NCBI RefSeq assembly: GCF_025398035.1
Contig: NZ_CP104558.1
Span: 2,894,501-2,958,500, forward strand
DNA from: Rossellomorea vietnamensis
Lineage (GTDB): Bacteria; Bacillota; Bacilli; Bacillales; Bacillaceae_B
Length of the DNA: 64,000 bases
Direction: 5' to 3'
Below, piece by piece: positions 1-21,831 of the stretch. The notes under the pieces are model-generated. The model was not told the DNA's origin. It ran no database searches and saw only the letters and a program-made list of their open reading frames with translations. How positions within the stretch are numbered: position 1 is the stretch's first letter; the number at the start of each line of letters is the position of its first letter. Made by a program: the position numbers and the translations under genes.

Positions 1-1
1 T

Positions 2-409
2 ATTCAAAAGCTTTTATATCTTCATATCGGTGTAGAAAGCAGCCGCTTCTTTTACATAGGATTAGTGCTTATGGTGTTTCTATTGGTATTTATTCAGTTT
101 TTTCATGTGAAAATGCTTTATTCCGGTACCTATGTCAAAATCCAAGATGGAAAGTCCCCATTCACTATTTCATCAATTGTCGCTTTCTCAACTTTTGGAT
201 ACGTTGCTGCACAGTTTTTAATGTCCTATATGCTCACTGACTCAGCTTTTATGATTGTATTAATGATGGCGTATTCGGTTGTATCGGTCGTTACTGCTTA
301 TTTATCTACTTTCATTCACCGGTATATTTATATACAAAAAAATAAGGAAAAAGTGTTGAAAATGTATCCTGATTTTGGGAAACCAAAGGATTCCAGAAAG
401 TTTGGTTAG
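2..409 (+). CDS. Tandem multi-pass membrane protein, copy 1 (5' end outside window)
   Basis: This is the 3' part of an open frame that is already open at the first base, so the gene starts upstream of the window. The visible part aligns along its length with the C-terminal halves of the next two genes (shared LYSGTY block, a GYV..Q/A block, and a conserved VYPQFGLP-like tail, here MYPDFGKP). Two or three hydrophobic helices are visible. The function is not recognised. The tandem paralogous arrangement next to an LXG effector resembles the multi-copy membrane immunity proteins (TsaI, DUF443) found beside Staphylococcus aureus TspA; that parallel is inference from context and topology, not from sequence identity. 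Confidence 0.75.
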   Translation: MQKLLYLHIGVESSRFFYIGLVLMVFLLVFIQFFHVKMLYSGTYVKIQDGKSPFTISSIVAFSTFGYVAAQFLMSYMLTDSAFMIVLMMAYSVVSVVTAYLSTFIHRYIYIQKNKEKVLKMYPDFGKPKDSRKFG

Positions 410-422
410 GGGGATTTTATCG

Positions 423-1163
423 TTGAAGCATGAGAAGGTAGATGATATTACTCTGTCTTATTTAAGGTTCCAATCACCCAGCGAAAACAGGAGTAATATA
501 TTCGTGTTCTTTTTCGTTTTTCTGGATCTCATTGGTGTGCTTTTCCTTCTGGGAGAGCCATTGATTCCTTCGTTATTTTGGGGTGGCATGATTCCGGTGA
601 TATTAATTCACCTGTGGGCCACTCCATATATAATTGCTCCTTATACGTTTGAGAGATCCTATTATCTATTTTTCGGAGTGTACGGGGTTATCAATACCTT
701 CATATACTTTTTAGTCATACAAAAATTGATATATTCTCATTTTCAAATAATCGGAATAGCCCCATTGGTTTTAGGATTAATTCTATTTGCCTCCCTCCTT
801 CTCATCATGAATTGGATGAACATCCGCTTATTGTATTCAGGGACGTACTCACGTCTTCAGAAAGGAGAAAAAACTGTAAACCTTTCTCCGATTGCTTCCG
901 CCTCAGGCATTGGCTACGTACTGGGACAGGTAATCCTATCGTCCTTCTTTGTAGAATCAGTAAAAACCCTTATGATCATTGCAGTGTTCTCTATACTCTC
1001 CGTGGCGACAGCTTACTTTTCGACCAGCATCCATAAATATTTTTATATCAGAAGAAACATCGAGAAGGTAAAACAGGTTTATCCCCAATTCGGGTTACCG
1101 GAAAAAGAAAGAACGATGATTGAGAGAAAAGGTGAAAAGAGGAGAAAACATGAAAAAGCATAA
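423..1163 (+). CDS. Tandem six-helix membrane protein, copy 2
   Basis: A protein of 246 aa if translation starts at the TTG at 423, which lies about 8 bases after a GGGGG ribosome-binding site and gives an N-terminus colinear with copy 3. Six hydrophobic segments are visible: FVFLDLIGVLFLLGE, the block ending in IIAPY, YLFFGVYGVINTFIYFLV, IAPLVLGLILFASLLLI, the SGIGYVLGQVIL helix, and a C-terminal helix before SIHKYFYI. It is clearly paralogous to the genes on both sides. It overlaps the start of copy 3 by 14 bases, so the genes are probably co-transcribed. No enzyme motif is seen. The role is unknown; an immunity-type function for the downstream LXG effector is one possibility. Confidence 0.85.
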   Translation: MKHEKVDDITLSYLRFQSPSENRSNIFVFFFVFLDLIGVLFLLGEPLIPSLFWGGMIPVILIHLWATPYIIAPYTFERSYYLFFGVYGVINTFIYFLVIQKLIYSHFQIIGIAPLVLGLILFASLLLIMNWMNIRLLYSGTYSRLQKGEKTVNLSPIASASGIGYVLGQVILSSFFVESVKTLMIIAVFSILSVATAYFSTSIHKYFYIRRNIEKVKQVYPQFGLPEKERTMIERKGEKRRKHEKA

Positions 1164-1854
1164 ATGTATTGAACCGATCATATTATCTTATTTAAATTTG
1201 CAAACACCGAAAGAAAATAGAAGAAATATCATTACGTTTTTTATCATTTTTTTAGACATCATTGGACTCCTTCCCATTTTGGGGGAGCCCTTCTCCTACG
1301 CCTTTGTCTGGCCGGCTGTTTTACCGGTGGCATTATTACATATATGGGCAATCCTTTACGTGGTGGCCCCGTTTCAGTTTGAAAAGTCGTACTACCTGTT
1401 TTTCGGTATATATGGCATCGTGAATACATATGTGTATTTTTTGGTGATTCAAAAATTTTTGTATGTGCATGCCGGATTGAGTGGCAGGGTTCCATTTATA
1501 TTAGGTGTGCTTTTCCTACTGGGTTTGCTGGTGTTTTTCCAGCTGTTTAATCATAGAATGTTGTATTCTGGGACGTATACAAGACTTCAGCGGAATGACC
1601 ATAAGTTCAAGTTATCTCCTATTTTAACCGCTTCAAGTATCGGGTATGTCATTGCCCATATTCTGCTTTCTACGTTCATGACGGAATCTCTTTTTGTGAT
1701 CATCATCATTACGGGAGTGTCCATCCTATCAATACTCACCGCTTTTTTTTCAATATCTGTCCACCGATACTATTTTATTTTGAAACATGAAGAGACAGTT
1801 AAGAAGGTATATCCTCAGTTTGGGTTACCTAAGAAGGCAAGAAAACAAAGGTAA
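1150..1854 (+). CDS. Tandem six-helix membrane protein, copy 3
   Basis: A protein of 234 aa starting at the ATG at 1150, placed behind an AGGAG site inside the end of copy 2. It shows the same six-helix topology and landmarks as copies 1 and 2: an ILSYLNLQTP N-terminus, FEKSYYLFFGIYG, MLYSGTYTRLQ, and the terminal VYPQFGLPKK. The tail is basic (KKARKQR), which suggests a cytoplasmic C-terminus. About 250 AT-rich bases separate it from the LXG module downstream, so it could belong to this module or to one further upstream. The function is unknown. Confidence 0.85.
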   Translation: MKKHKCIEPIILSYLNLQTPKENRRNIITFFIIFLDIIGLLPILGEPFSYAFVWPAVLPVALLHIWAILYVVAPFQFEKSYYLFFGIYGIVNTYVYFLVIQKFLYVHAGLSGRVPFILGVLFLLGLLVFFQLFNHRMLYSGTYTRLQRNDHKFKLSPILTASSIGYVIAHILLSTFMTESLFVIIIITGVSILSILTAFFSISVHRYYFILKHEETVKKVYPQFGLPKKARKQR

Positions 1855-2105
1855 GGTGAATTAGGAAATTAGGAAAGGACTGTTTTTCGCTTTTTCGATC
1901 ACTCCAATAAAAATAATATTTAATTGTAAAAAAATGTTTATTAAATAAAGTTAAATGGTATTTAATAATGAATAAAAGGTTGTGGTAAAAAAGATTCATT
2001 TTTGTTCATTTTAGTACTTCCTATGTCGGAAATAACAATATTTTTATAGAATGATTATATTAGAAAAAAGTGGGAATCGGTTTTGGAGTGTAAGGAGGAA
2101 ATGCC

Positions 2106-2492
2106 ATGAGTAATAATGATTTTATAATTAATCAATTGCAAAGTGATTTATCATTTTTAAATACTCAACTAGCAGACAATCAAGAGAAACTCATCAGGTT
2201 GAAATTGGCCAAGAGGGATATCGAAGCAAATCAAGAAATATATTTTGCAAACAAAAGGCTCGTTGAGGAACCTCAATTGACTGTCGATGTTTGGAGTGGA
2301 AGACATGCCAATGTATTTCTAGGAATTAGATCTACTATTGAAGATTCCTACAATAAAGTAGGAAATGAAGGTATAGAAGGATTGTTGCATGGTATTGAAG
2401 AGAAAATCTCCTATTTTGAAGCAGAAAACCAACAAGTAATGAATTCAATATCTTCAAAGAGAGAAAATATTTCACAATTAATCAATTCATAG
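2106..2492 (+). CDS. DUF5082-like helical LXG partner (YwqH-like)
   Basis: A 128-aa, wholly helical, soluble protein with no signal peptide. An AAGGAGG site lies 7 bases before the ATG. Position and size match YwqH (DUF5082), the first gene of the Bacillus subtilis ywqH-ywqI-ywqJ LXG module; a WSGRHANVF segment near residue 65 recalls the W-x-G turn of WXG100-like hairpins. In characterised LXG systems such small proteins bind the helical LXG domain and help present it to the type VII secretion machine. Next is the DUF5344-like gene, 15 bases away. The assignment rests on synteny and general pattern, not on a search. Confidence 0.7.
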   Translation: MSNNDFIINQLQSDLSFLNTQLADNQEKLIRLKLAKRDIEANQEIYFANKRLVEEPQLTVDVWSGRHANVFLGIRSTIEDSYNKVGNEGIEGLLHGIEEKISYFEAENQQVMNSISSKRENISQLINS

Positions 2493-2507
2493 AAGAGAGT
2501 TGAAATT

Positions 2508-2780
2508 ATGACAGAAGAGATACAAATTGTAAAAAGTGAAGTGAGTAGTGCATTAGAAGAACTTAGGAATACTATACATTCACTAGATGCAAGCAATCCC
2601 CAAATTAATTTCACCCAAAATAAATTAGATCTAATTAATAAGTTATTACAGATTGAAAAAAACTATTATCAAGTATTAAATCAATATAAGTCTATTCTAC
2701 AGAATGTACAGCAAGATTCCTCTGATAGTGTGGAGGAGCTATTTGCAAGAGATCAAGGACTTGCCAAAAGAATACGCTAA
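2508..2780 (+). CDS. DUF5344-like helical LXG partner (YwqI-like)
   Basis: A 90-aa predicted helical hairpin or coiled-coil protein without signal or membrane segment. It is the second gene of the effector module, between the DUF5082-like gene and the LXG gene, as YwqI (DUF5344) is in B. subtilis. The family is known as small WXG100-like partners that associate with the LXG domain for type VII export. A weak GAGAG ribosome-binding site precedes the ATG, and only 15 bases separate it from the LXG gene. The assignment is by synteny, size and helical pattern. Confidence 0.65.
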   Translation: MTEEIQIVKSEVSSALEELRNTIHSLDASNPQINFTQNKLDLINKLLQIEKNYYQVLNQYKSILQNVQQDSSDSVEELFARDQGLAKRIR

Positions 2781-2795
2781 TAAGGAGAAAATAGA

Positions 2796-4382
2796 ATGAA
2801 GGTACTTAACGTTTCTGAAATCCTTACTGAGTTGGAATTAACAGTTAGTAAGAAAGAAGATGAAAAAAAACAGATTTTAGATATACGTAATTCCTTGAAT
2901 AAGGTGATAGACTTAGAACGTTCGCTTTCGGGAAGTACAGGAGAGGCAATTAAAGAACATTTTACTGTCCTTCACGTACCTGCACTCATATTGTTCAATC
3001 AATTTTTAGATGAATATATAAACCAATTGAAAGAAATCCAGAACATACTGTTAGACTATGAAAGTGAAAATGGGGTAGTTAGTCAGGATTTTATAGAATA
3101 TGACGTTAAGCAAGGACTTGAAAAGCTTGATAGATTAACAGAGGATGTAATTGAAAGTATTAATCATGATTTTAGTAAGGTGAGTGATTTGGTAAGTGCC
3201 TCACCTCTATCAATGAATCTCATTCATTCCTCCGTAGAACAAGCGCGCAGGCACAATCACGAAACGGTAGAAAATCTTGCCAAGACTGATTATCAAGGTT
3301 CAAATATTCTACAGCCTTCTATAGATCAAATCCAAAATATCTCTGAACTCATAGGGAATATTAAGGGTTGGTCAAAAGGGGGAGTAGTGTTAAGTGAAAG
3401 TACGATTAAAGAGATTAACAAATATTTTACAGAGAATGATTTCATTAATAAGTTAATCGACTCCGCAACAGAACTTTCTGAACAACAAAACGATTCTACA
3501 ATGGCAGGTAACGTAGCTGATTGGTTAGATAAAATGGGAAAAATGAATGGGGGAATGGATGCCTTAAAGGGTACGATGGCTGCTTCAATTTTATTATCCA
3601 AACGAATTATTCTAACTAGAGATGGAAAAGGAAATTTTATCGTAAAGGCTCACCCTGATTGGATCAAGGGTAAGAATGGTGCATACGGATCAAAACTTGC
3701 AAATACGATTCATGGAATACTAAAAAAAGGAAGTTCTAGTTCTATATCTAGCATCCAAAATTATTTCTCCAAATTTCAAAATGCTCCAAGTAGGATGTTA
3801 CGCCATCTAGCGGGGTTAAATCCAGGAACTAATTTAAAAAGCTATAAAAAAATATTAGAACATCAACACCCGTATTTAAAGTTTTCACCAAGTCAAACGG
3901 AAGTTTATAAGCGTGCCGTATTAGATTTAAAAGGGACAGCATCTCAAGTTACCGATATGAAGGCAGTAAAAGCTATTGCGAGAAAAATTCCTTATGCAGG
4001 TATTTTATTTTCGATTGGTACAAACTCAGGCGAATTTTTTAGTGATCAGAATAAGAATAAGTCGGTAGCAGAAAAGGTGGGGAGAGCAACTGCTGGAATC
4101 GGAATGGATGTAGGAGTGGCAGGAATGACTACAGGTGGAGCATTTATTGGCACTCTTATCTGTCCTGGTCCTGGTACTCTTATAGGAGGTGCTATTGGTG
4201 CAACTGCAGGTATCGTTGCATCAATTAATTTCGAAGATCAAATAAAAGATATTGGAGAAAAAGCAGGGAAGTGGAGTGAAGAGAAAATCGGAGAAGTTAA
4301 GGAAACGTTTAATAATACTGTTGATGATGTAAAAGATAAAGTTTCAGGTGTCGGTGATTTTGTTTCTGGATTGTTTAATTAG
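2796..4382 (+). CDS. LXG-domain type VII effector with glycine-zipper C-terminus
   Basis: A 528-aa protein. Residues 1-200 fit an N-terminal LXG domain: the L-S-G motif is at about 44-46, followed by a GEAIKEHF block, a FLDEY helix and VSQDFIEYDVKQGL, all laid out as in B. subtilis YwqJ. The middle is a helical linker. From about residue 427 there is a long glycine/alanine-rich hydrophobic stretch with GG and GxxxG spacings (TTGGAFIG, GGAIGATAG), then an amphipathic tail ending in DFVSGLFN. There is no recognisable nuclease, deaminase or NADase domain. A glycine-zipper C-terminus suggests a membrane-targeting toxin, as described for S. aureus TspA. It is probably exported by the ESX apparatus encoded at 12442-22303. 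Confidence 0.78.
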   Translation: MKVLNVSEILTELELTVSKKEDEKKQILDIRNSLNKVIDLERSLSGSTGEAIKEHFTVLHVPALILFNQFLDEYINQLKEIQNILLDYESENGVVSQDFIEYDVKQGLEKLDRLTEDVIESINHDFSKVSDLVSASPLSMNLIHSSVEQARRHNHETVENLAKTDYQGSNILQPSIDQIQNISELIGNIKGWSKGGVVLSESTIKEINKYFTENDFINKLIDSATELSEQQNDSTMAGNVADWLDKMGKMNGGMDALKGTMAASILLSKRIILTRDGKGNFIVKAHPDWIKGKNGAYGSKLANTIHGILKKGSSSSISSIQNYFSKFQNAPSRMLRHLAGLNPGTNLKSYKKILEHQHPYLKFSPSQTEVYKRAVLDLKGTASQVTDMKAVKAIARKIPYAGILFSIGTNSGEFFSDQNKNKSVAEKVGRATAGIGMDVGVAGMTTGGAFIGTLICPGPGTLIGGAIGATAGIVASINFEDQIKDIGEKAGKWSEEKIGEVKETFNNTVDDVKDKVSGVGDFVSGLFN

Positions 4383-4405
4383 ATTATTTTTGACGGGAGA
4401 ATTTT

Positions 4406-5203
4406 ATGGGTAATTCTATCGATTTAACTACTATGGAATTTGCGGCCTCCTTGGCCTTATGCGGTTATGAAAATATGGCTAGCCAAGTGTTGAATAATAT
4501 GCACCTAATCAATGATGAAGAAAAACTAACTAGATACATTGAGGAAGTCGAAATCTCTTTAAAATCAAAGGGATATTGGGAAGAAGAACGTTCTTCATCC
4601 CTTGTATCCGGGTTAGAGGATCTTTTACATTTACTTGTTCATTCAAAGAAAAAAGTGAGATTAATAAAAGCTACGCAAATACTATTTATTCATCTTTTAG
4701 ATGAAAAAACAGTTCTGATACAAGAAATTAAAAACCAAATTCACTCTTTCGCTATTCACAAAATAAAAGATGATGTTTTTCAGCTTTTATTAAAATACTA
4801 TAAAAATGATTTACCTGACCAGAGTGTTGAAATACAACAGACTTTACTATTATCAGATCAAATGTATGATGAGCTTCATAATTTAGACCCTAAAGTTATT
4901 GATAATATAATTAACGATAAGAAGATAGAAGTGGAGTTGAAACAATTCCTTCAAGATTTTAAAAATAATAATAAGGAATTCGATAATCTATCATTTATGG
5001 AAATGGATTATATAAATGATAACTTACATATTCATCAAGTGATTTTTATGCTACCAAGTGAAAAGTTTGTCTGGCACTTAGATTATGAAAGAATTAATGA
5101 TAAAGAGGTTTATGTTATACCTACAAAAATTGATACTTATTTTGAAAAGATAAATCAGGAAATACTTGATTACTTTTTTTTAGGAGACTCCACGCATGTT
5201 TAA
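4406..5203 (+). CDS. LXG-locus protein, possible EspG-like export chaperone (paralog 1)
   Basis: A 265-aa soluble protein that I do not recognise with certainty. Its N-terminus (DLTTMEF..L...GYENMASQVL, then a SLKSKGY segment and a leucine-rich LEDLLHLLV helix) follows the pattern of ESX EspG chaperones: a short beta/helix opening, a 'SL.xKG' segment, then a helix. The C-terminal part (IFMLPSEKFVWHLDYERIND) matches the gene at 5610 (LFIPAEEYIWSINHEKVNDD), so the two are paralogs. It lies directly downstream of the LXG gene with a GGGAG ribosome-binding site. A chaperone or adaptor for effector export is the working idea. It overlaps the next gene by 8 bases. Confidence 0.6.
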   Translation: MGNSIDLTTMEFAASLALCGYENMASQVLNNMHLINDEEKLTRYIEEVEISLKSKGYWEEERSSSLVSGLEDLLHLLVHSKKKVRLIKATQILFIHLLDEKTVLIQEIKNQIHSFAIHKIKDDVFQLLLKYYKNDLPDQSVEIQQTLLLSDQMYDELHNLDPKVIDNIINDKKIEVELKQFLQDFKNNNKEFDNLSFMEMDYINDNLHIHQVIFMLPSEKFVWHLDYERINDKEVYVIPTKIDTYFEKINQEILDYFFLGDSTHV

Positions 5204-5576
5204 TAAAAAGAAAATGCTAGGATTTATTTTAATGGTTATAGTAATGACTCTTATTTCTTTTTCTTTATCTGGAATAAATATTCCTCTTCCAAGTGCCTTC
5301 GTCCCTCTAATGATTGCGGCTAATTGCGTGTTTGCTTTTATTTCTATCTTTACTCAACGGTTGATTATTGCATTATATGAAGTAAATGTCTTTGAAGAAA
5401 AAGATAGTCTAGGCAGCTACTTCTATAAATACGTGGCTATTTTCACTTCAGGTATAAACTATTATGTTCAAAATGTATTAAACCGTCTTCCTTTTCTGGT
5501 TAACAAGCTTTTGGGCCTAGGTTTTTTCATATCTCTTATGTGGATAGGGTTTGGAATAGTTGGTATCTTTGATTAA
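5196..5576 (+). CDS. Small three-helix membrane protein in LXG module
   Basis: A 126-aa integral membrane protein with hydrophobic helices near residues 8-28, 33-58 and 104-124, and an amphipathic middle. It overlaps the end of the upstream gene by 8 bases and has an AGGAG site 9 bases before the ATG, so it is translationally coupled within the LXG module. No family is recognised. Being small, membranous and next to a putative membrane-acting toxin, it is a candidate immunity protein. That is inference from location alone. Confidence 0.6.
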   Translation: MFNKKKMLGFILMVIVMTLISFSLSGINIPLPSAFVPLMIAANCVFAFISIFTQRLIIALYEVNVFEEKDSLGSYFYKYVAIFTSGINYYVQNVLNRLPFLVNKLLGLGFFISLMWIGFGIVGIFD

Positions 5577-5609
5577 TAGTAAAAGGAATGATCTTTAGGG
5601 GGACATAGC

Positions 5610-6566
5610 ATGAAGAAGGAAACAATCTTTAATCTTTCAACAACGGAACTTATCAACGGCTTAAAGCAAGCAGGATTTAGCAAAAAAGCGAACCAACTGA
5701 AGAGAAAAAGCAATAAACACAAAGAAAAAAGGGATCAGGAAATAGGTGAATCCAAAAATAACTCGAAAGAATTTAGAAAGATAATAGATGATATTGGAAA
5801 GTCAGAACACTATGTCCGCTTTGAGAATGGGGAAGAAAAGTTATTAATCCATTCTATAGATAAGCAACTGGCTCTTTTTGAAAGGATCAATCGTTCTAAA
5901 CACACTTTTTTTTATCAGAATTTAGATAAGGAAGTTTCATTGATAGTGTGTGAATTCTACAATCTTAACATTGAAGTCGATGAAGATCCGGCCAAGATAA
6001 ATCTGGATCTTGCTACCAGTACCTTCGATATGATTCATGCTATTGAGGAAAAAGAGCTTAATCGCATGATTAATGACCAGAGTCAGGCCTTTCAAATTCG
6101 CTTATTCTTGGAAGCATTTAAAGCTAATGGACAAAAAACCAACCACATTACTTATGTAAATAGTACGGCTAATAAAACAGAGGATGTTTATCTATTCATT
6201 CCCGCAGAAGAATACATATGGTCGATTAATCATGAGAAAGTAAATGATGATCAAATCATTGCCACTAGTAGCTCTTTCAAGAGTTTTTTTGAAGTTGTTC
6301 AACTAACTGTAGTAGAATATTTAACTTCAAAATTCAGCAAAAAAGGTAACAAAAAAGATGAAAAATTCTTTTCAATTAAACGAGGTTTTGTTTTTCTCAT
6401 AAAGAGTAATGTTCTCCTTCTGTTATTCACTCTATTATTCTTTCTGAATAAAAACAGTTGGGCTCTGGACGGAGAGGATTACGTAACATTATTTGCCGTT
6501 CAGGGGGAAGCACTTCTTATAATCTTATCTTTCATTGCTTGTCTACGTCCCAGAATCTTAAAATAG
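5610..6566 (+). CDS. LXG-locus protein with C-terminal membrane hairpin, paralog 2 of the 4406 gene
   Basis: A 318-aa protein whose first 235 residues are paralogous to the product at 4406-5203. Shared features are the NLSTTELINGLKQAGF opening, an acidic helical centre and the VYLFIPAEEYIW block. After a lysine-rich linker at about 240-255 it adds two hydrophobic helices (VLLLLFTLLFFL and EALLIILSFIACL) that are absent from its paralog, so this copy is probably membrane-anchored with the domain in the cytoplasm. It is the last gene of the module and is followed by a strong bidirectional terminator. It may be an anchored EspG-like adaptor; the function is unproven. Confidence 0.6.
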   Translation: MKKETIFNLSTTELINGLKQAGFSKKANQLKRKSNKHKEKRDQEIGESKNNSKEFRKIIDDIGKSEHYVRFENGEEKLLIHSIDKQLALFERINRSKHTFFYQNLDKEVSLIVCEFYNLNIEVDEDPAKINLDLATSTFDMIHAIEEKELNRMINDQSQAFQIRLFLEAFKANGQKTNHITYVNSTANKTEDVYLFIPAEEYIWSINHEKVNDDQIIATSSSFKSFFEVVQLTVVEYLTSKFSKKGNKKDEKFFSIKRGFVFLIKSNVLLLLFTLLFFLNKNSWALDGEDYVTLFAVQGEALLIILSFIACLRPRILK

Positions 6567-6625
6567 GTATAGAAAACACGCTATCGTGAAAAAGATGGCG
6601 GAAAAGGAATACCGCACTACATAAA

Positions 6626-12441: not shown

Positions 12442-12735
12442 ATGTCAGGAATTATTCGTGTTACCCCAGCAGAATTGATTAGTATGTCAAATCGATACAC
12501 AAGCGAAAGCAGCCAAGTGGGTGAACAGATCTCACGCCTTGACAATATGATTTCTGAGTTGGAAGGTATGTGGGAAGGTGAATCAAGCCGTGCGTTTGGT
12601 GAACAATATCAAACACTTCGTCCTTCATTCCTGCAAATGCAACAGCTTCTTGAAGACATCTCTATGCAGTTGACAAGCACAGCCAAGTCTCTTGAAGATG
12701 CAGATGCTCAGATCGCTAATCAAATTCGCGGATAA
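12442..12735 (+). CDS. yukE: WXG100 protein YukE/EsxA
   Basis: A 97-aa helical hairpin protein with the W-x-G turn in MWEGES (Trp near residue 40) and typical WXG100 length. It is a secreted substrate of the ESX/type VII system and, in this family, binds the third ATPase domain of EssC as a homodimer. The classical C-terminal YxxxD/E export motif is not obvious; the tail reads SLEDADAQIANQIRG, as expected for Bacillus-type EsxA. It leads the operon with a GGGAGAGG ribosome-binding site and is followed by a hairpin that may raise its level over the downstream genes. Confidence 0.95.
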   Translation: MSGIIRVTPAELISMSNRYTSESSQVGEQISRLDNMISELEGMWEGESSRAFGEQYQTLRPSFLQMQQLLEDISMQLTSTAKSLEDADAQIANQIRG

Positions 12736-12760
12736 GTTTATCCCAATCCATTTTAAACAT

Positions 12761-12795
12761 GAAGGAGCGCTTATCATTATGTGGGGCGCTCCTTC
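12761..12795 (+). promoter_or_regulatory. Intercistronic hairpin between yukE and yukD
   Basis: A perfect 10-bp stem (GAAGGAGCGC with GCGCTCCTTC) and a 15-base loop lie between the yukE stop and the yukD ribosome-binding site. No T-run follows. It is more likely a 3'-end stabilising or partially attenuating hairpin than a full terminator. Confidence 0.7.
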
Positions 12796-12815
12796 CTTAT
12801 GAGGTGAACCCGGAC

Positions 12816-13055
12816 ATGTATATAGAAATCACCATTGATCTTAATCGTTATGATGAGAATTCTTTCGATCTCAGACTATCAAATTATCATACTGTGAAAA
12901 AACTGATTGATCTTGTATGGCAGTCCCAAAAGCTTACGGCTGAAACCAGGGATGGCTATTGGATACGGATTGCCAACAAGCATAAAGTGGTTCCAGGCAA
13001 TATACGGCTGGTCGATGCAGGGATCCATACGGGAGATCGAATTGAAATTTTATAA
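12816..13055 (+). CDS. yukD: Ubiquitin-like ESX component YukD/EsaB
   Basis: A 79-aa protein with a ubiquitin-like beta-grasp layout (YIEITIDLNRY, VKKLIDLVW helix, GDRIEIL end). It equals B. subtilis YukD in length and start when read from the ATG at 12816, behind GAGGTG at 12801-12806. A longer in-frame reading from 12759 would run through the intercistronic hairpin and is rejected. YukD/EsaB is a cytoplasmic accessory or regulatory component of type VII secretion. Confidence 0.93.
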   Translation: MYIEITIDLNRYDENSFDLRLSNYHTVKKLIDLVWQSQKLTAETRDGYWIRIANKHKVVPGNIRLVDAGIHTGDRIEIL

Positions 13056-13069
13056 AGGAGACCAATAGA

Positions 13070-14365
13070 ATGGCACAAAAAAGTGGATCTTACTTACAAG
13101 AAAAGCTGGAAGCCGTAATACATAGAAAAGAAAATCGGATCGCGCTTATTTTTCAAAAAGAAAAAATTAAATTGGATGACGTAACGGAGATCGGCTTCCT
13201 GAAGGAATTATCCCCTTTCATCCAAAGAGAAATCACCATGGAAAATGATGAATTATGCATCGTGAATACCGTACCGGAGTCCTTCTCGTTTCATCCTCAA
13301 TTAAAGGCAAATGAGAAAGAACGTTTGATGACTGCCTATCAGTTGGTGCAGAAGATTCAAAGACATGCGCTGTCACGCCTCCACCTCATAATATGTCCCG
13401 AAAACATTGTATTTGACCAGGGGATGACACCACATTTCCTTCACTACGGTGTGAAAGAGAGTCTTCCCCCATACGAAAGAGACCAGGAGCTCCTGCTTAA
13501 AGAAACGAAAGCCACGGTAGCAGCCATTGTAGATTTACAGCATCGTTTCGAGGACTACTTAAAATTCAATGGAACATTAAAGTTATCTTCCATTACAAAG
13601 GCCATTCTGGAAGCGGGGAGCTTGCAGGAATTAAGTGAAGTGTTGAACCATTCCATCGCAGAGGCCAAGAAAACTGAACGTTTATATGTAAAGGTCAGCA
13701 AGAAGAAATGGAAGGTCAATCGGTATGTTCTTCTTGGGGTCTCTATATGCTTAGTCCCTGCCATCCTTTACTCCATTTATTCTCTTTTCTTTATGAATCC
13801 AAAGCAGGACAGGGTGGTAGCGGCACAGGAGAGTTTCCTGCTTGAAAAATATAGTGACGTTGTGACGGAGCTCCAACCATATGAAATCGATGAAATACCT
13901 AAGGTCACTCAATACCAGCTTGCCCTTTCCTATATCATTAATGAATCCTTGACCGAGGATCAAAAGGAAAATGTGCGCAACACGGTCTCCCTTCAATCAG
14001 ATCCTCTTTATTATGAGTATTGGATCAATATCGGAAGAGGAAAGGCGAAAGAAGCCTTGGAAACCGCCCGTTTCTTAGAGGACCGCGATCTGATCCTATT
14101 TGGACTCTTAAAATACAGGGAACAAGTGAAGGCGGACGGAGACCTTGATAGCGAAGAAAGACAACAGGAACTAAATGAAATTGAAAGTGAAATTGCTGAA
14201 TATGAAGAAGAAATGAAGGCTCTGGAAGAGGAACAATCATCACAGCCGACAGAGTCGATAGAGCAGCCGCAGCAGACTGAAGAAAAAGCAGATCCGGCTA
14301 CGGATGGAACGGAATCTGCACCTGCAGATTCAAAACCAAAAGATGATAAGAAGAAAACAAACTAA
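13070..14365 (+). CDS. essB: ESX component YukC/EssB
   Basis: A 431-aa bitopic membrane protein. Residues 1-210 form the pseudokinase-like cytoplasmic domain, a single membrane helix lies at about 218-240 (YVLLGVSICLVPAILYSIY), and the rest is the helical extracytoplasmic domain, ending in a Glu/Gln/Pro/Lys-rich low-complexity tail. YukC/EssB is an essential core subunit of the secretion channel and contacts EssC. It sits 14 bases after yukD and 15 bases before essC. Confidence 0.93.
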   Translation: MAQKSGSYLQEKLEAVIHRKENRIALIFQKEKIKLDDVTEIGFLKELSPFIQREITMENDELCIVNTVPESFSFHPQLKANEKERLMTAYQLVQKIQRHALSRLHLIICPENIVFDQGMTPHFLHYGVKESLPPYERDQELLLKETKATVAAIVDLQHRFEDYLKFNGTLKLSSITKAILEAGSLQELSEVLNHSIAEAKKTERLYVKVSKKKWKVNRYVLLGVSICLVPAILYSIYSLFFMNPKQDRVVAAQESFLLEKYSDVVTELQPYEIDEIPKVTQYQLALSYIINESLTEDQKENVRNTVSLQSDPLYYEYWINIGRGKAKEALETARFLEDRDLILFGLLKYREQVKADGDLDSEERQQELNEIESEIAEYEEEMKALEEEQSSQPTESIEQPQQTEEKADPATDGTESAPADSKPKDDKKKTN

Positions 14366-14380
14366 CAGGGGGGTGAGCAC

Positions 14381-17300
14381 ATGTATGCCCTATGGGTTTT
14401 TCACGACCATTATTATCAAACGATCCTCTTGAAGGATGAAAACAAAAAAATCACTTTGGGTCCCCAAATAGAAGATACGATCACGATCCTGTCCTTGCCT
14501 TCAACTGTCGAAATAGAGAAATTCGGATCAACCTTCCGTCTTCATCGTGAAGGGGAAGAAGGCAGCATCCTTGAACCAGGCAGTGATCATCGCCTGCAGA
14601 TCGGGGATAATGAGCTGCATATCATCATCACTTCATTCAAACCAAAGGCGGAGATCTTTTATATAGGCCATAAAGAAGAAATCAGTATGTCGACTGTGGA
14701 ACCTGAAGCAACGATCTATCATCCATACGGGAACAGGGAAGCAAGCTGCTTCTGGTACAAGGATTCCGATGGTGGATGGATAGTAGCAACGGGTGATTCT
14801 TCTTCTCTATATCTAAATGGTCATTTGGTTACAGGAAAACAGAAGCTACAAACTGGTGACATTCTATTTACTGCTTTCTTATCCGTTACCCTGTTAGAGG
14901 ATGATTTAATCGAGATACATAGTATCGAAGACTATCAGACTTCGTTAGTGGAAACTGTGAGACCGATGTCCGAGATGCAGAAGAAATATCCCAATTACCG
15001 CCGTACACCGAGGATGGTTTACGATCTGCCGGATGAAAAGGTTCAATTATCCTTTCCGAGTCAGGAATCCAGTGATACAAACCGGAGTTTGTGGTTAATC
15101 ATCCTCCCTCCACTCATGATGCTGATCGTCATGGGGATTGTAGCCATTGTCATTCCGAGGGGAATTTTCATCATTATCTCGATGGTCATGTTCACCACCA
15201 CCCTTGTTACATCGACCGTCCAGTTCTTCAAAGATAAAAGCAGCAAAAAGAAATCTCAGGAACGCAGAAAACGCATCTATACTCAATACTTGGAGAATAA
15301 AAGGGAAGAGCTTCAGTCCCTTGCAGAGAGACAGTCCGATGTCCTTCAATTTCATTTCCCTTCATTTGAAAGAATGAAGTACCTGACAGATCAGCTTTCC
15401 GACAGGCTTTGGGAGAGGACGATTGAAAGTCCCGACTTCCTTCAGTTCCGATTGGGCAGGGGGAAGCTACCTGCCAGCTACAGTATTTCGGTGAATTCTT
15501 CCGATATGTCCAATCGTGAAATGGATGAGCTATTGGAAGAATCACAGAAGTTAGAAGAGGCCTATCGGGAAATCGAACAATTACCGGTAACAGCCGATCT
15601 TCATAAAGGGGCCATCGGTTTGATCGGGAAAGAATCCGTCTACAAAAACGAGATTCACCAGCTTATCGGCCAATTGACGTTCTTTCATAGCTACCATGAT
15701 GTACGATTCGTCTCCATCTTTCATGAAGAAGAGTACCAGGATTGGGAGTGGATGAAATGGTTACCCCATTTTCAATTACCCCAGTCCTTTGCAAAAGGGT
15801 TCATTTACAACGAGAAAACGAGGGATCAAATCCTCTCCTCCATTTATGAAATCCTGCGTGAAAGAGATATAGATGAAGATTCAGAAAAGGTAAGATATGC
15901 TCCTCATTTCGTCTTTGTCATCACGAATCATCAGCTTATTTCTGACCATGTGATCCTGGAATACCTGGAAGGGGAGTATGGACACCTGGGGATGTCTGTC
16001 ATATTCGCGGCAGAGGCCAAAGAAAGCTTATCAGATAATGTTCACACACTCGTCCGTTACATTAATGATAACGACGGGGATATCCTGATTCAGGATAAGA
16101 AAGCTGTAAAGATTCCTTTCACCATGGATGGGTATGAGCATGACGGAAATGAGAAATATGCAAGAACCCTGCGAACCCTTAACCATCAGATCGGGATGAC
16201 TAACTCGATCCCTACAAGCGTGTCTTTCCTCGACATGCTCAGAGTGAGGGATGTGGATCAACTGCCGATTGAAGAAAATTGGCTATCGAGAGAATCAGCT
16301 AAGTCGCTGGCTGTGCCTGTCGGTTTAAAAGGTAAGGAAGATATCGTCGAGCTTAACTTGCATGAAAAGGCCCACGGGCCTCACGGATTACTTGCAGGGA
16401 CGACTGGATCAGGTAAGAGTGAATTCCTGCAGACATATATTCTATCGTTAGCGGTTCACTTCCATCCCCATGAAGTAGCGTTTCTGTTAATCGATTATAA
16501 GGGCGGGGGAATGGCCCAACCGTTCAAGAACATTCCTCACTTATTGGGAACGATCACCAATATCGAGGGAAGTAAGAACTTCAGTACCAGGGCGCTTGCC
16601 TCCATTAAGAGTGAGCTGAAACGGAGACAGCGCTTATTCGATCGTTATGAAGTGAATCATATTAACGATTACACGCGTCTCTACAAACGAGGGAAAACGG
16701 AAGAGCCCCTTCCCCATTTATTCCTCATCTCGGATGAGTTTGCGGAATTAAAAAGTGAAGAGCCGGAGTTTATCAAAGAATTGGTCAGTGCAGCCCGTAT
16801 CGGTCGTAGCCTGGGGGTTCATCTTATTCTTGCCACCCAGAAGCCGGGCGGCGTCATAGACAATCAAATCTGGAGTAATGCCCGTTTTAGAGTTGCTTTG
16901 AAAGTACAAAACACAGAGGACAGCCGCGAAATCCTTAAAAATGGAGATGCAGCATCCCTGACGGTGACAGGAAGAGGATACCTACAGGTTGGAAACAATG
17001 AAGTGTATGACTTATTCCAATCAGCCTGGAGCGGTGCCCCTTACCAGGAGGAGTCCTTTGAAGCAGAGGATGAAGTGGCGATCGTCACGGATCTGGGACT
17101 CATTCCTTTATCCGAAGTATCGACGAATCCCGGCAGTCAAAAAGAAATGACCAGTGAAATCGACGCCGTAGTCGATCGGATCGAAGCATTGCAGAATCAA
17201 ATGGACTTGAAGAAGTTATCCAGTCCTTGGCTCCCTCCTTTATCCAATCGGATTTACAGAACAGGATTCGCCCAGACTGAGGAGAATAAAATCCTCCTCT

Positions 17301-18838
17301 CCATGGTGGACGAGCCGGAGAAACAGAGCCAGACCCCATATCATTATGAGGTGATTGAGGACGGTAATGTTGGTATCTTCGGTTCATCCGGGTACGGGAA
17401 GACCCAAACGCTCATTACGTTATTAATGGGCATGGCTACACAGTTTACCCCGGAAGAGATCCATTATTATCTTCTCGACTTTGGGAATGGCGGATTGCTG
17501 CCACTGAAACAGCTACCTCATACGGCAGATTACTTCCTGATTGACGAAGAGAGGAAAATAGAGAAATTCATTGGGATTTTAGACGATGAACTGGCACGCA
17601 GAAAACAACTCTTCCAAAAACAAGAGGTCAGTTCCATCAAGATGTATAACACGGTAAGTGAAGATAAACTTCCTCTTTTATTTGTGACCATTGATAATTT
17701 TGATCTGGTCAAAGAAGAGATGCAGGAGCTTGAAGCAGAGATCAATCAGTTTGCGAGGGATGGCCAATCGCTTGGAGTATATATGTATTTTACAGCTACA
17801 CGTGTAAATTCTGTACGACAGTCGTTGATGAATAATCTCAAAACGAAAATCGTCCACTATTTAATGGACAGTTCAGAGGCGTATACGATGTTAGGGAGAT
17901 TACCTTTTTCTCCGGAAGCCATTCCAGGCAGAGCGATCGTTAAGAAAGATACGGCTTACTTCTCTCAAGTCTTCCTACCTACTGAAGGAAAAGATGATTA
18001 TGAACAGCTGAATCTGTTGAAAGAAGATATTCAGTTATTGAAAGAGAAATATAAGGGCTTGTCTTCACCTAAACCGGTGCCGATGTTGCCGACAGAACTG
18101 ACCATGGTCAACTTCACCCAGTATACAGATTCACGGATAAAAGCAGGCCTGCTGCCGATCGGGCTGGATGAAGAGACGGTTGAACCAGTGTATGTGAACT
18201 TCAAGAAAACAAAGCATTGCCTTGTATTGGGACAGGCACAAAAAGGGAAAACAAATGTGTTGAAAGTATTAGCCAACACAGCACTCCTCCAGGATAGTGA
18301 ACATATTGCGATCTTCGATTCCATAGACAGGGGATTATCGAATTTGATGAGGGAAGACAAGGTTGTATATATGGAAAACAAAGAGCATATTTCCATGTGG
18401 CTTAACAGAGTGGAGGAGCTATTCAGTTCAAGAGAAGAGCAATATAACTTATCCATTCAAAAGGGAAGCACTCTCCCATCCTTCTCTCCTGTGATGTTGA
18501 TCGTGGATGGGTATGCAAGATTCCTGCAAAATCTGGATCCCCTTCTCCAGGACAAAATTGTGAAGTGCATGAAAAATTACAGTCACTTAGGCTTCTGTGT
18601 GATCGTTTCCGGAAACAACAGTGAGTTAACGAAAGGCTACGATACATTAACGGTTGAAATGAAACAAATTCGACAAGCCCTTGTGTTGATGAAGAAATCA
18701 GAACAAACTCTATTCACTCTCAGTTATGACCGGAGAGAGCCGGAAATCCAGCCTGGTTTTGGTTATTATATTGAGAATGGAAAAGAAATCAAAATTCAAA
18801 TACCACTTATGGTAACGGAAAGGAAAGTACACGCATGA
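14381..18838 (+). CDS. essC: ESX translocase ATPase EssC/YukBA
   Basis: A 1485-aa FtsK/SpoIIIE-type motor. Two N-terminal FHA-like domains (about 1-190) precede two membrane helices at about 237-284. Three P-loop ATPase domains follow, with Walker A GTTGSGKSE (about 672), GSSGYGKTQ (about 1000) and GQAQKGKTN (about 1283), and Walker B LFLISDEF in the first. It is a single intact gene, as in most Bacillus genomes. EssC powers export and recognises substrates; its C-terminal ATPase domain usually decides effector specificity. Its stop overlaps the esaA start by 4 bases. Confidence 0.96.
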   Translation: MYALWVFHDHYYQTILLKDENKKITLGPQIEDTITILSLPSTVEIEKFGSTFRLHREGEEGSILEPGSDHRLQIGDNELHIIITSFKPKAEIFYIGHKEEISMSTVEPEATIYHPYGNREASCFWYKDSDGGWIVATGDSSSLYLNGHLVTGKQKLQTGDILFTAFLSVTLLEDDLIEIHSIEDYQTSLVETVRPMSEMQKKYPNYRRTPRMVYDLPDEKVQLSFPSQESSDTNRSLWLIILPPLMMLIVMGIVAIVIPRGIFIIISMVMFTTTLVTSTVQFFKDKSSKKKSQERRKRIYTQYLENKREELQSLAERQSDVLQFHFPSFERMKYLTDQLSDRLWERTIESPDFLQFRLGRGKLPASYSISVNSSDMSNREMDELLEESQKLEEAYREIEQLPVTADLHKGAIGLIGKESVYKNEIHQLIGQLTFFHSYHDVRFVSIFHEEEYQDWEWMKWLPHFQLPQSFAKGFIYNEKTRDQILSSIYEILRERDIDEDSEKVRYAPHFVFVITNHQLISDHVILEYLEGEYGHLGMSVIFAAEAKESLSDNVHTLVRYINDNDGDILIQDKKAVKIPFTMDGYEHDGNEKYARTLRTLNHQIGMTNSIPTSVSFLDMLRVRDVDQLPIEENWLSRESAKSLAVPVGLKGKEDIVELNLHEKAHGPHGLLAGTTGSGKSEFLQTYILSLAVHFHPHEVAFLLIDYKGGGMAQPFKNIPHLLGTITNIEGSKNFSTRALASIKSELKRRQRLFDRYEVNHINDYTRLYKRGKTEEPLPHLFLISDEFAELKSEEPEFIKELVSAARIGRSLGVHLILATQKPGGVIDNQIWSNARFRVALKVQNTEDSREILKNGDAASLTVTGRGYLQVGNNEVYDLFQSAWSGAPYQEESFEAEDEVAIVTDLGLIPLSEVSTNPGSQKEMTSEIDAVVDRIEALQNQMDLKKLSSPWLPPLSNRIYRTGFAQTEENKILLSMVDEPEKQSQTPYHYEVIEDGNVGIFGSSGYGKTQTLITLLMGMATQFTPEEIHYYLLDFGNGGLLPLKQLPHTADYFLIDEERKIEKFIGILDDELARRKQLFQKQEVSSIKMYNTVSEDKLPLLFVTIDNFDLVKEEMQELEAEINQFARDGQSLGVYMYFTATRVNSVRQSLMNNLKTKIVHYLMDSSEAYTMLGRLPFSPEAIPGRAIVKKDTAYFSQVFLPTEGKDDYEQLNLLKEDIQLLKEKYKGLSSPKPVPMLPTELTMVNFTQYTDSRIKAGLLPIGLDEETVEPVYVNFKKTKHCLVLGQAQKGKTNVLKVLANTALLQDSEHIAIFDSIDRGLSNLMREDKVVYMENKEHISMWLNRVEELFSSREEQYNLSIQKGSTLPSFSPVMLIVDGYARFLQNLDPLLQDKIVKCMKNYSHLGFCVIVSGNNSELTKGYDTLTVEMKQIRQALVLMKKSEQTLFTLSYDRREPEIQPGFGYYIENGKEIKIQIPLMVTERKVHA

Positions 18839-21831
18839 CAGAGAAGGTAAGCCTGTTCAAACTTTTATTAGCGGTCATGATGATTCTTGCAACTCCTCTT
18901 CTATTCTTCCGTTCAGTAGGTGAAAACCCGCTGAAAGTGAAAGAAAACGCCACTAAAGCCATTGCTATTGTGAATGAAGATGCAGGGACAGAAGTAGATG
19001 GGGAGCCCTTGGCATTTGGTGGGGATGTTACGTCCATATTGGAGGATCAATCTTCCTTTGAATGGACAGTCGTTGGCAGAAGTGCAGGAGAAAACGGTCT
19101 TCAAAGTTCAAAATATGACGCAGTGGTCTATATCCCTTCGGACTTCTCTGACAAAGTCATGACATATGATGAAGAAAGACCGGAAAAGACTAACCTGAAT
19201 TTTAAAGTTCAACCCCAACTGAATGCTGTAAATAAAGAAAAGGTGCAGTTGGAAATCGAAAAGGCCACCAAAAGGGTCAATCATAAAATGTCCTCCCTTT
19301 ATTGGAATTATGTATCAGCGGATATGGAGAATATCCGGGCGGAATTCGATGAAATTTTACAAAAAGAACAGACATTCCAAGAAACGATGCTGGCATTCTA
19401 TAAACCTAGTTCAAAGGATCTCGCTGGTCAGATCGAACAGCAGACATCGATGCTATCAAATCTTCAAAACTCGATCCAGCAGGCTGACAGTCGGACACCA
19501 CAACAGCAAAATACGTTGGAATCCTTTGAACAAAGCCTTTCAAGCTTCGTAGAATATGTGAACCAATATAGAGAATATCAGGATAATCAAAAGCAATTAT
19601 TAGCGGATATTCAGTCACAATCCGTACAGATGATCAATGAATCAACTGAAAACCAGCAGCCGCGCTACTTAAAGTCCAAATCACTATTCTCAGAGCAAAG
19701 TGAGGCTTTAACGGCAGGTTTGACTCAGTTGAATAGCAATATGGATACAAACCAGGAGATATTCACCGACCTGCAGAAGCGCAGATTTGAAGAAGTAGGT
19801 AGACAGGTGGAAGATTTCTACTCCTTTCAGGAAAGAGTGTTGAATTTCTATCAGCAGCTTCAGGACACAACAACGCTGAATAACCTGCAAGGAAATATTT
19901 TCGAGCTTAATAATAAGTTGGCTGAAGGAGATGGGGAGATCTTCAATCCACCTGCCCCACCTGAGATTCCTGAGCCGCCAAAAGATGGAGAGGATCCCGC
20001 CCCTCACCAGGTCGTGATTTCCTCACAGGAAGGAGAGACCGAGCCAGGGGAACCAACTGACCCTTCTCCGGCACCACCGAATTTAGAACCGGAAATAACG
20101 GAGCTGACAGCTATTTCTGCGGAAATCGATACGTTGAAAGAAACACTGACTAACTTAACCGTACCAACACCCGAAGACATAACGGCAGCTGTGACCAATA
20201 TTCAAACGATCAATGATCGCATCCTACAGGTCCGAACGAAGCTGCAAGGGAAAAATAATAGTTCTGAGAACCCTCTTCAGGCCGAAGTGGATAGACTGTT
20301 GGGAGAAGTATCAAGACTTCTTGAAGATAATCAGACACTGATTGATAAAATTGATGAACTGACCAAACAGGTTGAAACTCTTACAACCGAAAATGAAGAG
20401 CTCAAAGATCAAGTCAAGACATTGACTGAGACAAATGAAGCTCTCATAAACCAATTGGAGATGTTCTCAGATAACATTTCGAATATCGTTGCCGAAATTG
20501 AGGATAAGGAGAGTTCGATCCTGAACTCAGCCGCTTTATCGGAAAATAGGAGAAACACCTTATATGGCTATTTTTCCCGCGGGATTAATAACTATAAGCT
20601 TATGGATCTTCTACAGTACTACTCTTACCTCGATCGCTATGAAGCGACTCTAAACGGGATGTTAACGGAGAATGGAGTGAAAGCGGCCGTTCTTCAGGAT
20701 GAAGATCTTAAAAATGAGGTCAATGAGATCTTGAAAGTGAGTCAGACGGAACAAGCGGAGTGGGAACAATTAAATACAGGGTTGCCGACTACTGAGGATG
20801 CCCTTATTACACTTCAAGACTCTTACACTGTATTTGCTGCTGAATACAATCAAACCATAGATGATCAGCAAGCACAGGTTACAGAGAGCCTGAATGCGAT
20901 TAATCAAGAGGCAACAAATGTATTAAATAGAATCCAGCAGCCTGAACAAGCGGCTCCAACTCCTGTTCAGGGAGCAGCAGGTCCTGATTTAGTAGGGAAC
21001 CAAAAGCAAATCGGAAGTGAAATCAAGTCGATCCATTCCTTCCTGGATACAGTGAATGAAAGCCAAAGTACAATCGTTTCCTATACGAACGAGCTTCAAT
21101 CAAATGTATCCAATGTACAAAGTGATGCGGATACCTTGAATAATAAGTGGGCAACGAATGTAGCTTCCACTCAATTGATCCGTGATGATGTATTCAGCGT
21201 CCTCGGAAATGCGTTCGTTGACGGACAATCCAATGGGTATGTATATGATTTCTTAACAAATCCTTTAAACGTAAAGGGTGATGTTCCGGAAGAGAAGAGT
21301 GCGAGCGTTCTTCCACCGGTTGTTATCCTGTTTATCGTCTTGTTATCCAGCTTACTTATCGGATATACAAGCTATTACTTCCAAAATGCACCTCTTTGGA
21401 TTCAAGGAGTTATTTTTCTCCTCCTGAATATGATTGTCGGATTCGTGATCAGTCTGTATGGGTTGGACATCTATCCGTTGGTGGAATCACGTTCTGTCGA
21501 GTGGACGGTCTTTACGATCCTTCTATTATTGACTGCATCAGGACTTGTCAGAGTGGCTTTTGTGGCACATCGTTTAGTGGGCTGGTTTGTTTCTGTAGGG
21601 CTCATCACCCTGTTTGTGACACCACTATTAGCCTTGACTACGCCGAATTTCAATTTTAAAGATCCGATGTCTACTGTGTATATGTCGATTCAATACGGCA
21701 CGGAGTCACTTTTCAATCAAGCTGTCATTATTTTGGGATTGGTCGTGATTGGTCTTGCCGTCTTACAAGTATTGTTGAATAGGCGCTCTAATACCCAAAC
21801 CGATGAGAGTTCGGAAGCTTATGAGGGGTAA
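18835..21831 (+). CDS. esaA: ESX membrane protein EsaA/YueB
   Basis: A 998-aa protein with one N-terminal membrane helix (about 7-24), a very long helical extracellular region rich in Gln and coiled coil, a Pro/Glu-rich segment near residues 370-410, and five or six membrane helices in the last 180 residues. This is the EsaA/YueB (YhgE/Pip-like) layout. YueB forms surface fibres and is the SPP1 phage receptor in B. subtilis; EsaA is a core subunit of the S. aureus ESX system. It is coupled to essC through an ATGA overlap. Confidence 0.92.
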   Translation: MTEKVSLFKLLLAVMMILATPLLFFRSVGENPLKVKENATKAIAIVNEDAGTEVDGEPLAFGGDVTSILEDQSSFEWTVVGRSAGENGLQSSKYDAVVYIPSDFSDKVMTYDEERPEKTNLNFKVQPQLNAVNKEKVQLEIEKATKRVNHKMSSLYWNYVSADMENIRAEFDEILQKEQTFQETMLAFYKPSSKDLAGQIEQQTSMLSNLQNSIQQADSRTPQQQNTLESFEQSLSSFVEYVNQYREYQDNQKQLLADIQSQSVQMINESTENQQPRYLKSKSLFSEQSEALTAGLTQLNSNMDTNQEIFTDLQKRRFEEVGRQVEDFYSFQERVLNFYQQLQDTTTLNNLQGNIFELNNKLAEGDGEIFNPPAPPEIPEPPKDGEDPAPHQVVISSQEGETEPGEPTDPSPAPPNLEPEITELTAISAEIDTLKETLTNLTVPTPEDITAAVTNIQTINDRILQVRTKLQGKNNSSENPLQAEVDRLLGEVSRLLEDNQTLIDKIDELTKQVETLTTENEELKDQVKTLTETNEALINQLEMFSDNISNIVAEIEDKESSILNSAALSENRRNTLYGYFSRGINNYKLMDLLQYYSYLDRYEATLNGMLTENGVKAAVLQDEDLKNEVNEILKVSQTEQAEWEQLNTGLPTTEDALITLQDSYTVFAAEYNQTIDDQQAQVTESLNAINQEATNVLNRIQQPEQAAPTPVQGAAGPDLVGNQKQIGSEIKSIHSFLDTVNESQSTIVSYTNELQSNVSNVQSDADTLNNKWATNVASTQLIRDDVFSVLGNAFVDGQSNGYVYDFLTNPLNVKGDVPEEKSASVLPPVVILFIVLLSSLLIGYTSYYFQNAPLWIQGVIFLLLNMIVGFVISLYGLDIYPLVESRSVEWTVFTILLLLTASGLVRVAFVAHRLVGWFVSVGLITLFVTPLLALTTPNFNFKDPMSTVYMSIQYGTESLFNQAVIILGLVVIGLAVLQVLLNRRSNTQTDESSEAYEG

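Follow-up and report, generated by a model that had tools for sequence, protein, structure and literature searches.

Tandem membrane protein genes beside an LXG effector of Rossellomorea vietnamensis are most likely orphan immunity genes of a different LXG toxin

The DNA analysed in this work (the window) is a stretch of 64,000 nucleotides of the 4.52-Mb genome of Rossellomorea vietnamensis (G000:C1:2894501-2958500 in our numbering, in which G numbers denote genomes and L numbers the loci examined). Its left end is occupied by three tandem genes for membrane proteins, tmA, tmB and tmC, and by a module consisting of two genes for small helical proteins, a gene for an LXG effector (LXG528) and three further genes, g7, g8 and g9; a type VIIb secretion system (T7SSb) is encoded about 6 kb beyond this module (Table 1). 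The initial annotation proposed that the tandem membrane proteins provide immunity to the LXG protein of the window. Comparison of 36 Rossellomorea genomes, including that of the window, leads us away from this assignment, as the tm family follows another LXG protein, LXG480, in nine genomes, and LXG528 has g7-g8-g9. We consider it quite probable that the site is a hotspot in which a resident LXG528 module stands next to an orphan array, tmA-tmB-tmC, directed against the absent LXG480.

Table 1. Genes and features of the window discussed in the text
Feature	Description or proposed role	Position in window	Strand	Basis or remark
tmA	six-helix membrane protein, proposed orphan immunity gene of allotype A	1..409	+	paralogy, tree; start ~290 bp before the window (L005:9711-10409)
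tmB	proposed orphan immunity gene, allotype B	423..1163	+	paralogy, tree
tmC	proposed orphan immunity gene, allotype C	1150..1854	+	paralogy, tree
YwqH-like gene	Lap-type helical partner of LXG domain	2106..2492	+	PF16888, E 6.7e-21
DUF5344 gene	Lap-type helical partner	2508..2780	+	PF17279, E 9e-20
LXG528	LXG effector, 528 amino acids	2796..4382	+	PF04740, E 1.9e-43
g7	265 amino acids, no transmembrane segment; proposed cytoplasmic immunity protein or zipper chaperone	4406..5203	+	
g8	126-amino-acid membrane protein, proposed membrane immunity	5196..5576	+	three hydrophobic segments
g9	g7-like domain and two C-terminal transmembrane segments; proposed membrane-anchored immunity	5610..6566	+	
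T7SSb machinery	secretion system	12442..22303	+	EssC match and gene order

The window genome contains exactly three tandem tm paralogs, in agreement with the earlier count of at least three; tmB and tmC are 43% and 50% identical to tmA, and a hydropathy scan found 5, 5 and 6 segments in the three proteins. The family is present in 15 of the 36 genomes of the genus. The C-terminal half of LXG480 was detected in nine of them (E ≤ 1e-124) and gave no match in the window genome; a weak match in G013 (E 4.7e-7) proved to be the LXG528-type gene of that strain. In all nine genomes, a YwqH-like gene, a gene of DUF5344 size and the gene for LXG480 (476-480 amino acids) are followed directly by a tm gene, and downstream of it, in variable order, lie genes for the soluble proteins h264 and h137 and more tm copies (gene orders were mapped over 20 regions). 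With genomes treated as independent, the association with LXG480 is significant both for tm, found in 9/9 genomes with the toxin and 6/27 without it (Fisher p 5e-5), and for h264, found in 9/9 and 0/27, respectively (p 1e-8). Seven of the nine LXG480 modules occupy the same site as the module of the window, beside an FtsX/ABC gene pair; that of G005 lies beside ydbST and that of G016 elsewhere. The window site is a T7SSb-adjacent hotspot, probably of LXG toxin and immunity genes; in G008 and G019 no gene related to LXG, as judged by comparison with our query set, was found there.

The last 80 residues of LXG480 form a glycine zipper which occurs in three allotypes: A (G022, G035, G005), B (G030, G004) and C (G003, G007, G016, G023). 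Identity of these tips is 90-100% within an allotype and 67-78% between allotypes, and the first downstream tm gene matches the tip allotype in all nine loci (72-95% identity within, 48-58% between). The LXG domains have a history different from that of the tips, as seen in A_G035 and C_G007, which are 98% identical over residues 1-200 and 75% in the tip. In a Mantel test on nine pairs, comprising all strong LXG480 loci of the genus (the G013 match was left out), the tip correlated with the first tm protein (r=0.939, p=0.00015) and LXG residues 1-200 did not (r=-0.07, p=0.67). When seven of ten loci from outside the genus were added (the other three lack LXG and give no pair), the resulting 16 pairs, from Rossellomorea, Aquibacillus, Cytobacillus, Sutcliffiella and Psychrobacillus (5 genera), gave r=0.81 for tip versus tm; the partial r was 0.74 (p=5e-5) given the LXG domain, and 0.12 (p=0.09) for the LXG domain versus tm with the tip held. 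The YwqH-like partner served as an internal control: it co-varies with the LXG domain (r=0.93) but not with the tip (r=-0.08), and h264 of the same cluster follows neither of them strongly (0.31 and 0.38). At the level of DNA, the five pairs compared lose identity within the LXG480 gene, from ~95% to ~65% in four and from ~88% to 62% in one, and do not regain it across tm; the drop occurs near position 1500 of the aligned operons for A versus B or C, and near position 1800 for C_G003 versus B_G030. Such a pattern is the mark of an exchanged cassette comprising the tip and tm.

Several of our results caution against taking this co-variation as a sign of specificity. The test within the genus is based on nine loci, some of them closely related, and residues 301-397 of LXG480 also correlate with tm in these nine pairs (r=0.49, p=0.005). 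In the 16 pairs, even LXG residues 1-200 do so (r=0.51, p=1e-4). Moreover, h137 partly co-varies with the tip (0.63), in that its A versions are set apart from those of B and C. Because tip and tm adjoin, linkage may explain part of the allotype match; hitch-hiking in one exchanged DNA block would also yield co-variation and, since both elements lie in one block, linkage is here inseparable from specificity.

The orphan status of the array is indicated by a tree of 32 tm proteins, in which types A, B and C each form one group (support 100/96, 100/100 and 100/99) and 15 other rows fell in no group. Each group of LXG480-adjacent genes includes one tm gene of the window: tmA belongs to A, tmB to B and tmC to C. 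All four LXG proteins encoded in the window genome resemble LXG480 in the N-terminal domain only (BLASTP), and this genome carries the membrane immunity-type genes without the toxin. At the same hotspot, G029 and G031 have tmA-tmB-tmC, g8 and the transmembrane (TM) end of g9, and lack LXG480, LXG528 and g7, and G022 combines an LXG480 module with decayed tmB, tmC, g8 and g9. The ratios of non-synonymous to synonymous substitution rates (dN/dS) between the tm genes of G000 and G031 are 0.14, 0.24 and 0.16; these genes are constrained, but less than their neighbours (0.03-0.09). The tandem genes of the window are thus most likely orphan immunity genes, one per LXG480 allotype, which belong to a toxin other than LXG528.

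There are also findings that do not sit easily with this interpretation. The dN/dS of the orphans (0.32 for tmA versus G029) exceeds that of the neighbouring FtsX, ABC and MFS genes (0.02-0.09), tmB is interrupted in G029, and broken tm copies occur in G022, G030, G004 and other genomes. A simple rule, by which only membrane genes persist without the toxin, is contradicted by h137, which survives alone in two genomes: at the hotspot of G027 (L080:2815-3285) and G032 (L082:2754-3230), where LXG480 is absent, an h137-like gene (48-49%) stands by itself as an orphan that encodes a soluble protein. In addition, the LXG528-type modules of L144 (G257) and L148 (G227) have a tm-like gene downstream, so cross-protection is possible; the homology of LXG528 and LXG480 tips (hhalign probability 97.4%) likewise allows for some cross-protection. 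One could go further and suppose that tmA, tmB and tmC are the immunity set of LXG528 itself, recruited from the LXG480 family. The array ends 250 bp upstream of the LXG528 operon, and both the relatedness of the two tip families and the arrangement in G257 and G227 would agree with recruitment. We nevertheless find it unlikely, because in G020 the module is complete (an LXG528 homolog of 52% identity followed by g7-g8-g9-g8') with no tm match, 8 of the 15 tm-bearing genomes have no LXG528-tip match, in six others besides that of the window the match is on another contig or more than 200 kb away, and tmA, tmB and tmC each group with genes beside one LXG480 allotype.

The tm family extends beyond Rossellomorea: profile A2 of this family has matches in 36 of 397 genomes and 16 of 135 genera. 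The initial annotation regarded wide occurrence away from LXG genes as evidence against its proposal, and such occurrence is seen in part: 6 of the 15 tm-bearing genomes of the genus lack LXG480, and among 23 loci from other genera (G159, G216, G238, G289, G361 and G368, which match but have no locus, were left out), the tm cluster of 14 also encodes an LXG or LXG-like protein (12 with LXG; L147 and L153 with an LXG-like protein that has no Pfam LXG match), two keep Lap genes and not LXG, and seven, all from one genus, contain long tm variants (333-374 amino acids) with no LXG within 1.5 kb. When four of the long-variant loci were extended to ~19 kb, the island contained an LXG module in two cases and Lap genes only in the other two. 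In a scan of named genomes, an LXG480 homolog stands directly upstream of tm in 7 of 10 non-Rossellomorea loci and is not there in 3; the two sets of loci overlap, and L106 and L116 look like one locus. In L151:6635-6695 (G090) and L150:6932-6989 (G252), YwqH-like and DUF5344 genes directly precede tm and the LXG480 gene is missing, though in L151 what appear by eye to be its first codons remain before the tm gene. An h264-like gene, a gene for a 369-amino-acid zipper protein without any Pfam match and a tm gene stand in a row in G094 (L147:5740-8493). This row may represent an LXG480 immunity set around a toxin devoid of a recognised LXG domain.

As to the resident module, the LXG domain of LXG528 (residues 2-199) scores 149 bits against a cut-off of 26.5 in PF04740, and the DUF5082-like and DUF5344-like partners recognised earlier are confirmed directly upstream as Lap-type proteins by above-cut-off matches to PF16888 (YwqH-like) and PF17279. 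In agreement with the earlier description, no enzyme motif was found at its C-terminus, for which no Pfam family reaches its cut-off. The last 130 residues contain five zipper motifs, a count reached by 562 of 5000 composition shuffles and therefore not beyond that expected of a Gly/Ala-rich composition, and in a hydropathy scan of the LXG protein as a whole, 0 segments of 19 residues pass the cut-off. What suggests that LXG528 is a zipper toxin is the homology of its glycine-rich tip (residues ~440-485) to the conserved LXG480 tips, and not the motif count. It is conceivable that the tip is a linker or has an unrecognised activity, and that LXG528 is not a membrane toxin at all; the motif count and the moderate hydropathy would be in line with this. 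We regard it as improbable, because the tip belongs to a conserved Gly-rich family, relatives of g7 follow zipper proteins even where these have no Pfam LXG domain (L177, L178, L182, L183), and both zipper LXG proteins that have been characterised, TelE and EsxX, act on membranes (PMC10434224, PMC12744356). We regard LXG528 as a probable membrane-damaging toxin that is accompanied by protective genes of its own, presumably g7-g8-g9. Matches to its tip occur in 8 of the 36 Rossellomorea genomes, two of them weak (G011, G012), and in G287 (L169) and G407 (L173) an open reading frame (ORF) with a tip 45-47% identical to that of LXG528 adjoins g7 and a six-segment g8-like protein. In G227 (L148:70-10062), EssC is directly followed by an LXG528-type module, which includes several two-TM genes of 112-130 amino acids, g7 and a long tm variant (374 amino acids).

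The small membrane protein noted earlier downstream of the LXG gene is g8; g7 and g9 had not been singled out, and the two are paralogous (BLASTP E 2e-18). Genes similar to g7 are present in 7 of the 36 genomes, one of them (G022) being a decayed g9-like gene, and those similar to g8 in 9, with a weak match in G027. In the latter genome a weak g7-like stretch (31% over 77 amino acids; L076:1-490) lies ~6.6 kb from the weak g8-like match. Three genomes without LXG528 (G029, G031 and G022) keep g8 and g9 material and not g7; in G029 and G031, g8 is present and only the TM part of g9 remains. In the order, 35 of 397 genomes have a match to the g7 profile. Among 27 non-Rossellomorea loci (of 30 loci read, matches without a locus being left out), 21 encode a zipper protein no more than 1.5 kb upstream of g7 and in the same orientation, in many cases separated from it by one to three genes for small membrane proteins; for comparison, at least five zipper motifs occur in 65 of the 1797 ORFs of the loci, the toxins themselves included. 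Speaking against a strict coupling are the six remaining loci (L172, L175, L176, L179, L180 and L181, the last with a g8-g9 pair), which have no zipper protein within this distance. At L177, L178, L182 and L183, zipper-tipped proteins of 368-387 amino acids have no Pfam LXG domain and each is followed by a g7-like gene; because of these proteins, g7 appears to track the zipper. Those of L178, L182 and L183 show weak BLAST similarity to the LXG protein of G020, and the four possibly constitute a non-LXG type of zipper toxin.

None of the immunity-type proteins was matched consistently by a Pfam family. In single-protein Pfam scans, to which the cut-offs were applied, no model reached its cut-off for tm, g7, g8 and g9 of the window, and the same was true of one h264 and two h137 proteins; scans over tm, g7-like and h264 alignments gave scattered single-member matches (best E 2.9e-4 to 6.4e-4). 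TsaI, the membrane immunity protein of Staphylococcus aureus, belongs, according to the initial annotation, to the DUF443 family. That the multi-copy membrane family is linked to LXG and distinct in sequence from DUF443, as anticipated, is upheld: in sequence-to-profile comparison, 0 of 16 tm proteins matched DUF443 up to E 10, and 0 of 36 genomes contained a match above the cut-off, one overlap with a tm gene having E 0.47. DUF5079 and DUF5080 (ExiC and ExiD) were rejected on the same grounds (no match up to E 10 among the 16 tm proteins, sequence-to-profile). DUF5085, the soluble immunity family of TelE/EsxX-type toxins, was likewise absent in sequence-to-profile searches, both for 30 g7-like proteins (none up to E 10 among 25 of 27 matching families listed) and for nine h264 and two h137 proteins (none up to E 10). 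Alignments of g7 with h264 were colinear, with hhalign probabilities of 4.8% and 6.3%. A relationship of g8 to tm was ruled out (0.2%), and g8 reached 63% against a 114-amino-acid two-TM family of other modules. The g7-like and tm profiles had no match up to E 1 among sequences of solved structures; h264 matched M157 over 78 residues (E 3e-4) and, more weakly, three other entries, none of which we credit. Plasmid searches with tmC and g7 as queries gave no match, and viral contigs contained no relative of the g7 alignment.

The presence of LXG effectors agrees with the T7SSb machinery of the window genome. EssC (ORF 14381-18838) was identified by a TIGR03928 match of 1754 bits at 14981-18805, and the adjoining genes are presumably, from gene order, those of EsxA/YukE, YukD, EssB/YukC and EsaA/YueB-like and EssA-like proteins. 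The reading of LXG528 as an LXG effector with a zipper-type tip, located beside a T7SSb, is supported. Between the module and T7SSb (6665-11162) lies an FtsX/ABC permease accompanied by a histidine kinase and a response regulator of its own; such a permease borders LXG or Lap islands in two genera (the window; L142 and L145). The three other LXG genes of this genome (L006:7226-9088, L006:17465-19303 and L007:6547-8022) have different C-termini, and two of them border a group of short proteins which, judged by eye, resemble coat proteins. A promoter and terminator scan of window positions 1-6700 gave counts not above those of shuffles.

The gene set resembles EsxX/ExiABCD of S. aureus ST398, with an LXG toxin, DUF5344/DUF5082 partners, a zipper tip and six-TM genes (PMC12744356). 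According to that report, ExiAB are soluble, act against the cytoplasmic toxin and are present with all esxX genes analysed; ExiC and ExiD, six-TM proteins required together, protect against extracellular and not cytoplasmic EsxX, and also occur alone in antitoxin islands (PMC12744356). Thus, in both systems a soluble partner is tied to the toxin and membrane genes are also found as island orphans. Unlike the EsxX system, tm is not DUF5079/DUF5080 and g7, h264 and h137 are not DUF5085 in Pfam scans; here, the tip and membrane partner co-vary, forming three allotypes, and all three partners are present in one genome that lacks the toxin. A simple transfer of the EsxX scheme is further discouraged by modules with a single tm gene (L103, L105, L108, L121, L123 and L124), by the h137-like gene standing alone in two genomes, and by the six-pass neighbour of TelE in S. 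gallolyticus, Gallo_0563, which gave no protection to E. coli expressing TelE (PMC10434224). The notion that tm proteins are accessory membrane proteins, active in export or regulation and travelling with the 3' end of LXG480, would accommodate this failure as well as a co-variation that linkage alone could yield, but it is improbable, given that G000 and G031, which lack LXG480, have intact tm genes under constraint, that several tm types are kept within one genome, and that six-TM ExiCD protect against extracellular and not cytoplasmic toxin, whereas TelE was expressed inside E. coli (PMC12744356, PMC10434224). Like TelE/TipE, the present systems would combine an LXG toxin, a C-terminal glycine zipper, natural variants and soluble immunity; unlike TipE, a 151-amino-acid DUF5085 protein, g7 has 265 residues and no Pfam family above cut-off (PMC10434224). 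TspA/TsaI of S. aureus, a membrane-depolarising LXG toxin whose locus also encodes several homologous membrane immunity proteins (PMC10765036), is similar in outline, but no DUF443 was found above cut-off in the 36 genomes and the tandem genes are most likely those of another toxin. Finally, YfjB/YfjC of Bacillus subtilis and EsaE of S. aureus parallel the pairing of g7 with a zipper protein, as a globular partner is encoded with a T7 toxin; the YfjC gene lies just downstream of a predicted pore former (PMC10765036), and YfjC and EsaE were reported to be EspG-like by prediction (PMC10765036, PMC10653861).

On the preferred reading of a resident module beside an orphan array, the YwqH-like and DUF5344 proteins would bind the LXG domain for export, and LXG528 would insert its glycine-rich tip into a rival's membrane. 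In the cytoplasm of the producer the tip may be capped by soluble g7, and g8 and g9 could guard the producer's membrane against toxin arriving from outside. The tmA-tmB-tmC array, with one membrane immunity gene per LXG480 allotype, would protect against neighbours armed with LXG480-A, -B and -C. By analogy with the staphylococcal proteins, h264/h137 and g7 would be cytoplasmic caps, and tm and g8/g9 membrane antidotes.

A broader proposal, which in our judgement could go either way, is that glycine-zipper LXG toxins of Bacillaceae are allotype cassettes, each composed of a tip and a six-helix antidote, swapped onto conserved LXG exporters, and that recipients build up a standing immune repertoire with an antidote for every allotype; g7 would cap zippers with or without an LXG domain and be separable from the membrane antidote. 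What the present loci add to the known zipper LXG toxins are immunity-type families unmatched in Pfam, a membrane partner matched to the tip allotype, and an orphan array covering all three allotypes of the genus. How membrane-active toxins of the T7SS are recognised by membrane immunity proteins is, to our knowledge, largely an open question. Three natural pairs, differing by 22-33% in an 80-residue tip and by 42-52% in the antidote, together with a genome that has all the antidotes and no toxin, make the specificity between toxin and antidote directly testable. The analysis also brings out the families tm, g7, g8 and h264, which have no consistent Pfam match, and lends support, beyond staphylococci, to the division of labour between soluble and membrane proteins seen with EsxX.

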